Of a stretch of DNA of 30,877 nucleotides, positions 10,606 to 25,726 are shown in pieces. The translations under genes and the position numbers were made by a program. Under the pieces are notes generated by a model. It saw only the letters and a list, made by a program, of their open reading frames with translations, was not told the origin of the DNA and did no database searches. Position 1 is the stretch's first letter, and each line of letters begins with the position of its first letter. Source of the DNA: a virus; the IMG/VR virus record IMGVR_UViG_3300017917_003361, positions 1 to 30,877 of that record; one strand, given 5' to 3'.

Positions 10606-10767
10606 ATGCCTAGAAATCAACTAACAAAATATCAAATAAAAACCGATGTTTTGAGAATAAAAAATTCTCTATATGAAGAGTACATAGATTATCAAACAGA
10701 TATTAAAAGTTTAGCTCACAAATATCTGAATATGGTATTGGATAAGATCGAAGAATATCGCTACTAA
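10606..10767 (+). CDS. Hypothetical protein, 53 aa
   Basis: The ATG follows the stop of the 64-aa gene directly. The product is basic at the N-terminus and predicted fully helical, with many Tyr, Lys and Glu residues (YEEYIDYQTDIKSLAHKYL, then LDKIEEYRY). No family recognised. The end-to-end junction with the upstream gene and an intact reading frame are the only support. Confidence 0.45.
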   Translation: MPRNQLTKYQIKTDVLRIKNSLYEEYIDYQTDIKSLAHKYLNMVLDKIEEYRY

Positions 10768-10770
10768 ATA
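10763..10770 (+). promoter_or_regulatory. Possible variant late promoter before the tail-tube-like gene
   Basis: ACTAAATA overlaps the stop of the 53-aa gene, 21 bp before the likely TTG start of a virion protein gene. It shares the TAAATA core of the late octamer but differs at the first two bases, so it is only a candidate. Confidence 0.3.
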
Positions 10771-10791
10771 GTCCTAGCTTGGGAAGCTGAC

Positions 10792-11358
10792 TTGTCCAAT
10801 AATCCTTGTACCCTACAGCAAGTTTCAAATAAAAACTTTCTGTCATTAGGTGGGTTTAAACTTATCATCAATAGATGTCCTAAGGTAGATTTTCTTTGCA
10901 ATAAGGCAAATCTACCTGGGATGACATTGGGCAGTGCAACACAGTCAACATATTTGAAAGATATTCCTGTTCCAGGAGACAAACTTAGATATGAAGATTT
11001 AACCATCAACTTTATAGTTGATGAAGAATTAGAAAATTATTACCAAATTTATCAGTGGATGACATCTCTTGGTTATCCACAATCTATTGCACAATACTCT
11101 GAATTACAAACTGGCAACAGATTTTATCCAAATGCAGATAGTAATGATCCGTATAGTGAAAGATCTGATGCTACATTACTGATTTTGAGCAGTAATTATC
11201 AAACTGCAGGAAAGGTAATTTTCAAAGACTTGTTTCCAACATTTCTTTCAGGAATTCCTTTTGATGCAACGTTGCAGGAACAGCAATACTATACCGCAAC
11301 TTGCACATTCCGCTATACTATTTTTAATTTGATTGATATTAATGGAAAAGAAGTCTAG
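10792..11358 (+). CDS. Tail-tube-fold virion protein, possibly gp3 (tail completion/sheath stabiliser)
   Basis: 188 aa. The pattern GGFKLIINRCPKVDFLCNKA, LPGMTLGSATQ, VPGDKLRYEDLTINFIVDEE and YYQIYQWMTSLGYP follows the gp19/gp54 type of tail tube fold and is common in marine T4-like phages. Its place after gp23 and before uvsY/uvsW fits the gene often labelled gp3 in cyanophages, but that name comes from memory of gene order rather than clear similarity to T4 gp3. No in-frame ATG exists upstream of the conserved region, so a TTG start (after GGGAAG at 10781-10786) is the best choice. The end overlaps uvsY by 17 bp. Confidence 0.65.
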   Translation: MSNNPCTLQQVSNKNFLSLGGFKLIINRCPKVDFLCNKANLPGMTLGSATQSTYLKDIPVPGDKLRYEDLTINFIVDEELENYYQIYQWMTSLGYPQSIAQYSELQTGNRFYPNADSNDPYSERSDATLLILSSNYQTAGKVIFKDLFPTFLSGIPFDATLQEQQYYTATCTFRYTIFNLIDINGKEV

Positions 11359-24505: not shown

Positions 24506-24516
24506 ATTACTTGTTG

Positions 24517-24522
24517 TATAAT
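24517..24522 (+). promoter_or_regulatory. Candidate -10 box before hsp20
   Basis: Perfect TATAAT just after the regA terminator. No acceptable -35 is found at 16-18 bp, and the extended TG is not in the right place. It gives a leader of about 45 bases that carries AGAGGT (24565-24570) before the ATG. A promoter is expected here because of the terminator, so the box is plausible. Confidence 0.5.
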
Positions 24523-24574
24523 TAGTATTGTCGCCGCAAGGGACAGTAAACACTAGACGCTCAAAGAGGTCACC

Positions 24575-24958
24575 ATGTTTGGATCACATTCAATTACACT
24601 TAGCGTGCCTGAAACTAGGACATACTTAGATAGCATTTCAAATCAAAGCTATCCACCACATAATATCATTAAAACGAAGGATGGTATTAGACTTGAACTT
24701 GCTGTAGCAGGATTTTATAGTGATGAAATCAAAGTTTACACAGAAGAAGGTTGTATTCACGTAGAGGGCAATCGAGAAGAGACCAATGAAGAAGCAATTT
24801 CTTACCTTCATCGAGGATTAGCTTTCCGCAGATTTTCTCGTACTTGGAGAATGCCAGAAGATTTGCAAGTAGATAAAGTTGATCATAGAGATGGGTTGGT
24901 TATTATTGATTTTCGTAAGGTAATTCCTGAACATCAAAAAAGAAAAGATTACCTCTAA
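24575..24958 (+). CDS. Small heat shock protein Hsp20
   Basis: Alpha-crystallin-domain chaperone that holds unfolding proteins, common in cyanomyoviruses. 127 aa. The domain spans about 28-118: NIIKTKDGIRLELAVAGFYSDEIKVY, IHVEGNREE, then a dimer loop YLHRGLAFRRFSRTWRMPEDL and DGLVIIDFRK. A late IPEH follows in place of a clear I-x-I motif. It starts a new transcription unit after a terminator. A variant late-type box at its end precedes the next gene. Confidence 0.92.
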   Translation: MFGSHSITLSVPETRTYLDSISNQSYPPHNIIKTKDGIRLELAVAGFYSDEIKVYTEEGCIHVEGNREETNEEAISYLHRGLAFRRFSRTWRMPEDLQVDKVDHRDGLVIIDFRKVIPEHQKRKDYL

Positions 24959-24961
24959 ATA
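24954..24961 (+). promoter_or_regulatory. Possible variant late promoter after hsp20
   Basis: TCTAAATA overlapping the hsp20 stop, sharing the TAAATA core with late promoters. The next gene begins about 22 bp downstream. The first two bases differ from the T4 octamer. Confidence 0.25.
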
Positions 24962-24982
24962 CTTCAAAATGAATAAAGTGTT

Positions 24983-25726
24983 TTGTATAGTCGCATAAGA
25001 AAACATATTTCAGCGTCAGATTTGAGAAAAATAAATGAAAATTTGACGCTGAAATTTAGAGAACAACTAAATCCAACATTCTGGGAAGGTAATGTTCTGA
25101 AGTCAAATATCAGAACTGCCTTCCTTAGATTTGCTGATGCATTTGCAGAGTATGTTGAACTTGATAGTAAAGCAATCAAAGATGTATTGATGCTTGGTGG
25201 TAATGCTGGATACAATTACACACCATATTCAGACATTGATGTTCATCTAGTCGTAGATCCGAAATATCTTCCTCAGTGCGATCCTGAACTGCTGGACGAT
25301 TACTTTAAAGATAAAAAAACTTTATGGTCATTGACGCATGATGTAAAGGTTTATGGTGCAGATGTAGAACCTTATATTGAAAAACCTGGGATTACTAGAA
25401 GAAAAAGTCAAGGAGTTTATAGTGTATTAAAGAACAAGTGGGTTCAAAAACCACAGAAGTTTGAAGGAGAACTTGACGAAGCAGAACTAGAAAAGAAATC
25501 TAATAATATAAAAAATAAAATTGATACGTTGATCAGGGGCAACAATGAAACTGGATTACGTGCAATTCTAAAGAAACTAAACACCGCAAGGAATTCTTCT
25601 TTGGATAAGTTTGGCGAATATGGATTTGAAAATCTCGTGTTCAAAGAACTACGCAACAGTGGATACATTGACAAAGTGCGTAAGGCAGTGATAGAATTAA
25701 AGACACAGAAGCTGTCGTTGCCATGA
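24983..25726 (+). CDS. Putative nucleotidyltransferase (Pol-beta-like fold)
   Basis: 247 aa if begun at TTG 24983. GGNAGYNYTPYSDIDVHLVVD (72-92) is the G-S/G-x-D-x-D core of the nucleotidyltransferase superfamily: catalytic D84 and D86 with D92 as a likely third acid. The preceding FREQLNPTFWEGNVLKSNIR and the Lys-rich helical C-terminus resemble phage proteins of unknown substrate. No in-frame ATG precedes residue 70, and an in-frame stop (24974) limits the start to TTG 24983 or TTG 25022. A strong hairpin occupies codons 9-25. It is coupled to the next gene by ATGA. Confidence 0.65.
   Translation: MYSRIRKHISASDLRKINENLTLKFREQLNPTFWEGNVLKSNIRTAFLRFADAFAEYVELDSKAIKDVLMLGGNAGYNYTPYSDIDVHLVVDPKYLPQCDPELLDDYFKDKKTLWSLTHDVKVYGADVEPYIEKPGITRRKSQGVYSVLKNKWVQKPQKFEGELDEAELEKKSNNIKNKIDTLIRGNNETGLRAILKKLNTARNSSLDKFGEYGFENLVFKELRNSGYIDKVRKAVIELKTQKLSLP
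25007..25055 (+). repeat. 17-bp stem hairpin at the start of the nucleotidyltransferase gene
   Basis: ATTTCAGCGTCA (25007-25018) is perfectly complementary to 25044-25055. The pairing continues with one G-T and four A-T pairs to 25023/25039, closing a 15-base loop. No T tract follows, so it is not a terminator. It lies just inside the coding region, or in the leader if translation starts later, and could mask or shape translation. Confidence 0.75.

Follow-up and report, generated by a model that had tools for sequence, protein, structure and literature searches.

Why should a very stable hairpin lie inside the coding sequence of a phage gene, just past a start codon that is not ATG? The stretch of DNA analysed here, called the window throughout, is a 30.9-kb virus record (30,877 nt) in which genes for Hsp20, a nucleotidyltransferase-like (NTase) protein and the gp43 DNA polymerase are clustered (Table 1). 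An earlier note on its sequence had reported the hairpin, here HP1, at the 5' end of the NTase gene, and had suspected a translational control element, either a leader ORF combined with the hairpin or occlusion of the ribosome, or else a processing site between hsp20 and the gp43 operon. Our comparison of the locus among relatives bears out the structured RNA and leaves no place for the leader ORF.

Table 1. Features of the NTase locus, in positions of the window
Feature	Position	Strand	Basis or remark
hsp20 gene	24575..24958	+	PHROG 432 Hsp20, E 3e-33; C-terminus kept among relatives
Late promoter box (T4 type), CTAAATA	24955..24961	+	Present in all 30 distinct leaders
HP0, leader hairpin (arms 24957-24964 / 24976-24983)	24957..24983	+	Leader folding comparison
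Nine-codon ORF	24969..24998	+	Not conserved; outside the RNA element
NTase gene, 247 aa	24983..25726	+	PHROG 36119, E 3e-50
TTG start codon of the NTase gene	24983..24985	+	Homology starts at this codon
HP1, coding hairpin, codons 9-25 (+25 to +73 from start)	25007..25055	+	Fold and comparison
HP2, second coding hairpin, codons ~34-48	25084..25124	+	Folding comparison

The locus and its relatives

Protein searches yielded about 100 relatives of the NTase, drawn from viral contigs and one single-cell-derived virus; cultured cyanophages have only distant homologues, with ~46% identity or less to the window protein and an ATG start in those examined. The relatives keep the GG..SDxDxH motif of the protein, which matches NTP_transf_2 weakly and under the Pfam cut-off, and gives weak nucleotidyltransferase-like matches in Foldseek (best E 0.012, CdnE and AadA/AAD(9)-type); a profile search of the PDB returned no significant match. 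Residues 1-17 have low confidence in the predicted protein model, and thus much of the HP1 5' arm probably codes for a flexible N-terminal tail.

Because a TATAAT-type sequence lies upstream of hsp20 in most lineages, and a scan between hsp20 and the NTase gene found no terminator, RNA reading through from hsp20 into the NTase gene is likely. In the L049/L060 group hsp20 appears to be preceded by a late-type box instead of the TATAAT-type sequence, so that the read-through RNA may there also be late. At 24516-24556 of the window, and at the same place in relatives of most lineages, the TATAAT-type sequence is followed by a short hairpin ahead of hsp20; it lies near the presumed 5' end of the hsp20 mRNA and has a UUCG or UACG loop in many lineages (TGTCGCC..GGGACA).

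Start codon, late promoter box and leader hairpin

The earlier note had found no in-frame ATG before the conserved domain and had left the start undecided between TTG codons at 24983 and 25022. The lack of an ATG was confirmed and both TTG codons exist, together with a third at 25043 that had gone unlisted, but the ambiguity disappears on comparison. Among ingroup relatives the codon aligned with TTG 24983 is always TTG or GTG, except for an ATG in L075, whereas TTG 25022 becomes TTA, TTT or CTT and is dismissed as a start. Read from this alignment, the translation start is TTG 24983, and we regard the question as settled. The start region has no clear Shine-Dalgarno sequence; in L027-L035 the GTG start follows directly upon a stop codon. 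The nine-codon ORF that had been proposed as a leader does exist, but its ATG 24969 is replaced by ACG in every close relative apart from L003, and the leader peptide was rejected.

The junction between hsp20 and the NTase gene is occupied by a late promoter box, of which the hsp20 stop codon forms part. Comparison shows the box to be conserved: it lies 5-25 nt upstream of the start in 30 of 30 distinct leaders, that is, in every relative with a readable leader. As it is retained in L105 and L109 despite altered flanking sequence, it is more than a mere hsp20 stop codon. The same box begins at -12 in Aeh1, and the T4 box spans -13 to -6 (PMC1524935); extrapolated from this spacing, with the box at -12 to -6, the late mRNA of the window is predicted to start at ~24967.

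Occlusion of the ribosome by the stem originally reported does not fit its position, since that stem begins 25 nt 3' of the start codon. Any occlusion would come from a different hairpin, HP0, which had been missed. Its 5' arm takes in the end of the late box plus a few nucleotides after it; the 3' arm lies over the ribosome-binding region or the start codon, and in the window extends to the first base of that codon. The arms vary in sequence by lineage while keeping the same place (ACTTC/GAAGT, CCTAA/TTAGG, ATACTAC/GTAGTAT, TACGA/TCGTA). When the 30 distinct leaders were set against shuffled versions, z averaged -1.9, with P<0.05 in 15 of them, and a Stouffer combination over 14 lineages gives P 3e-10, a value that is optimistic, as are all combined P values here, because the lineages are related and not independent. 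Two substitutions have weakened HP0 in the window itself (-3.0 kcal/mol, P 0.29), compared with -8.2 to -8.8 kcal/mol in most of its clade. RNA starting at ~24967 is predicted to lack the 5' arm of HP0, and the folds left in such leaders amount to 0 to -3.2 kcal/mol.

The coding hairpins

The 17-bp stem with a 15-base loop at HP1 was confirmed. Its arms, 25007-25023 and 25039-25055, pair without interruption over 17 positions (12 Watson-Crick pairs, then one G-U, then four more Watson-Crick) and enclose a loop of 15 nt, with a minimum free energy of -20.9 kcal/mol. The surrounding 131 nt fold to -30.6 kcal/mol, and comparison with 200 dinucleotide shuffles gives z = -6.1. The claim that such a stem lies far beyond chance was overstated as regards length alone. 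In a count that permits G-U pairs and loops of 4-30 nt, HP1 is the sole 17-pair stem of the real window, but the average for shuffled windows is 0.1 (one or more in 5 of 60 shuffles). Since the length of the stem is only moderately unusual, the finding rests on comparative evidence.

HP1 was rightly said not to be a terminator: a Rho-independent terminator has a G+C-rich stem followed by a T tract, but no T tract lies 3' of 25055, and the terminator scan did not list it. Nor is it an RNA known to Rfam, which gave no family match anywhere in the window at gathering score. The fold of the window also contains a long-range pair between CUCUAAAU (24953-24960) and AUUUAGAG (25054-25061); that form is not conserved and was not used further.

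Comparison among the ~100 relatives shows HP1 to be a conserved RNA structure in the NTase mRNA, kept in the sense RNA through codon choice. A hairpin occupies codons ~9-25 in nearly every lineage, while its pairs, loops and even registers differ: the window clade has an A-rich loop of 15 nt, the L027-L060 group a 12-bp stem with a GNRA-type loop, L106-L111 the pairing AAGCGUC/GACGCUU, and L115-L133 and L075-L077 a shifted register. When codons 6-30 of each distinct 5' sequence were set against 1000 synonymous versions, z fell between -2.4 and -6.1 for most lineages (-4.3 for the window). The shifted-register group is weak over these codons but reaches z -5 to -5.7 over codons 10-35 (L117, L075), and the synonymous test finds HP1 weak or missing in L105 and L109. 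Along the gene, mean z is -3.6, -3.4, -1.8 and -1.5 for sliding intervals that start at codons 0, 10, 20 and 30, and ~0 thereafter, the excess folding being limited to codons 1-55.

Randomising the synonymous codons over codons 8-42 in 18 lineages gave a mean z of -4.1 for the sense strand as against -2.4 for the antisense, the sense strand being the more constrained in 18 of 18. This asymmetry favours RNA and speaks against selection at the DNA level, and a DNA cruciform was discarded because the antisense strand is under less constraint; an overlapping gene was discarded as well, no other frame being conserved. In the register of the window 17 of 18 pairs are formed, compared with 10.3+-1.7 expected from synonymous codons, and over 37 distinct arm pairs the HP1 register is 75% paired, compared with 27-50% when slid by 1-3 columns. 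RNAalifold recovers a 9-bp HP1 core from 17 sequences, with two pairs changed on both sides. Core codons are fixed, whereas the same amino acids change codons elsewhere in the gene: codon identity is 0.85 at Leu21, where Leu codons average 0.30 over the gene, and ~0.85 at Ser10 and Ser12, compared with 0.51. Selection for an RNA element where the NTase gene begins is thus supported, in line with the control element suspected in the earlier note, since pairing is kept by different, compensating codons. Silent changes that break the stem, which would have pointed to selection on the protein only, are mostly lacking: TCA->TCG and CTG->TTG retain pairing, and CTG->TTA in L020-L022 yields one mismatch and one G-U.

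A second hairpin at codons ~28-50 is usual across lineages and is likewise maintained in the sense RNA through the choice of codons, and equivalents of HP2 are strong in many of them, especially L117, L075 and L049. The ATG-started outgroup homologues show no excess 5' structure at the place of HP1, although several have late boxes. L036-L042 lack the coding hairpin; ahead of their NTase gene lie a strong terminator-like hairpin, then TATAAATA, then an ATG start.

A proposed late switch and its rivals

We suggest, with roughly even confidence, that the NTase gene opens with a structured module for translation initiation that acts at the RNA level, in which HP0 provides a late switch and HP1 and HP2 provide insulation. 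As far as sequence comparison can tell, HP0 and HP1 probably let the NTase be translated only from late-infection messages. RNA reading through from hsp20 would fold HP0 and be poorly translated, and RNA begun at the late box would lack the HP0 5' arm and keep the start region open. HP1 and HP2, which start just past the footprint of the initiating ribosome, would fold the first coding segment onto itself, leaving it unable to pair with the start of the late message, which is weak, Shine-Dalgarno-poor and non-AUG. Silencing, late activation and insulation are the parts of this model that we infer.

Predicted opening costs of the start region are in line with such a switch, at 2-11 kcal/mol in the predicted late RNA compared with 7-20 kcal/mol in the read-through RNA. 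In 23 of 24 lineages the read-through cost exceeds the mean of controls with shuffled upstream sequence; in the window the late and read-through costs differ by merely 2.3 kcal/mol. In these folding models HP1 probably keeps the late start region unpaired, which is more open with the natural codons 7-46 than with synonymous versions in 21 of 23 lineages, a small effect (mean z -0.71); the same codons have no effect on the start region of the read-through RNA. Codon choice over codons 2-8 contributes little to the switch (mean z 0.6), and codon-level selection for their pairing with the promoter strand, tried as a further candidate, is weak (mean z -0.5). A stronger version, in which HP0 silences the read-through RNA and HP1 is specifically required for efficient initiation at the non-AUG, Shine-Dalgarno-less late start, seems to us doubtful; if it were true, HP1 would be a downstream hairpin of bacterial type that favours initiation at a non-AUG codon.

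Strong mRNA folding ~30-70 nt after start codons has been reported as a 'transition peak' for 43% of bacteria (PMC7063772), and HP1 might be an extreme instance of this genome-wide selection, evening out elongation near the start or raising expression, so that no switch specific to the gene need exist. HP1 resembles this peak in its position after the start, which its span of +25 to +73 fits, and in selection acting via synonymous codons; folding in the genome G001 is also mildly stronger at codons 12-60 (mean z -0.8 vs -0.47 overall). The peak, however, is a weak genome average, whereas HP1 is one very stable hairpin, far above that average, kept within a single gene family by compensating changes. 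Moreover, outgroup homologues with late boxes lack the HP1 signal, and HP0 would go unexplained, so that we consider this explanation unlikely, if still one to be reckoned with. Among the 154 ORFs of the related genome G001 the 5' end of the NTase gene takes 12th place for coding structure. Structure of this kind shows no association with late boxes across that genome (P=0.84), a point against the proposed module, and the idea that hairpins early in the coding sequence are common to late genes was abandoned.

It is rather improbable that HP1 guards the late mRNA at its 5' end against decay by a host enzyme of the RNase E type, or that a nuclease cuts at HP1 and so parts hsp20 from NTase-gp43 messages. 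Selection on sense RNA and proximity to the predicted late 5' end would suit either role, and structure counts more than loop sequence, as a shield would require. Yet HP1 is ~40 nt away from that end, and loops ranging from 15 nt and A-rich to GNRA match no specific cleavage site. This variability of loop sequence, loop length and even register tells also against an operator for a phage protein (NTase, gp43 or RegA) under autogenous control like the T4 gp43 and gp32 operators. T4-like phages do use such operators, gp43 is encoded two genes downstream, and a GUCAGA/UCUGAC core is near-invariant in several lineages. Like the gp43 operator of T4 and RB69, HP1 is a hairpin of a T4-like phage not far from gene 43. 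That operator, however, precedes the start of gene 43 by ~40 nt and has a conserved loop, while HP1 lies ~910 nt and two genes upstream, inside another gene, and agrees with it neither in position nor in a conserved loop; RegA sites lack structure and span the AUG. We therefore hold an operator to be very improbable. Finally, the stem could be a by-product of the protein sequence or of selection for a palindrome in DNA, given that the protein motif (I/K)-(S/K)-A-S-D-L...(L/I)-T-L-K/R-F recurs and that stem length by itself is only moderately unusual. The synonymous randomisation already disfavours this strongly, as does the contrast between sense and antisense strands, seen in 18 of 18 lineages, and we find it scarcely credible.

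Comparison with known systems

The nearest parallel to the proposed module is found in the T4 genes e, soc, 49 and I-TevI: in early RNA that reads through, the start is occluded, and RNA from the late promoter lacks the 5' arm of the hairpin (PMC3014915). At the NTase locus too, a late promoter sits right before the translation start, an occluding hairpin has its 5' arm upstream of the late RNA start predicted there, and the late RNA is predicted to be open. Across the NTase relatives, as in those T4 genes, a hairpin of the longer transcript covers the ribosome-binding region or start codon, weakly so in the window. Unlike the T4 genes, the NTase gene belongs to cyanophage-like myoviruses, has a non-AUG start with no clear Shine-Dalgarno sequence, carries an extra conserved hairpin within the coding sequence and is known from sequence. 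The hairpins of T4 genes 25 and 38 are likewise RNA structures near the start that are thought to aid initiation, but they lie between the Shine-Dalgarno sequence and the AUG, whereas HP1 is in coding sequence past the start.

These results suggest that the T4 device of a late promoter hidden in an occluding leader hairpin is also found in marine T4-like phages, on genes other than those known for it in T4. They further suggest that structure in coding sequence just past a weak start codon can be maintained by selection across tens of codons. The comparative signal yields exact silent mutations that can be tested.

Leader hairpins at other loci

Among leader hairpins at late boxes, that of the NTase gene takes 5th place out of 46 in G001 and 2nd place out of 30 in G002. 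The stronger cases in this ranking include a RusA-like Holliday junction resolvase, in whose leader a CCTCC just past the late box pairs with the Shine-Dalgarno sequence GGAGG (L138:6837-6870 in G001; L153:115-153 in S-PM2). This leader is a functional parallel of T4 gene 49, itself a resolvase. It is not a general cyanophage trait, being present in S-PM2 and G001 and absent from nine other cultured phages examined. Further inverted repeats between a late box and the start codon of other genes occur at G001:154463, 85835, 111371 and 112263 and at G002:104108, and a class of late-box leader hairpins may exist in these phages. As S-PM2 is cultured and has the parallel hairpin at its resolvase gene, the class is amenable to laboratory testing.

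The strongest synonymous-controlled coding fold of G001 (z -8.2, 30 randomisations) lies at codons 25-49 of a 310-aa ORF (G001:90656-91588, L138). In the window, at 10764-10792, a second CTAAATA box precedes a tail-tube-like gene with an apparent TTG start (10792) and a short inverted repeat in the leader.
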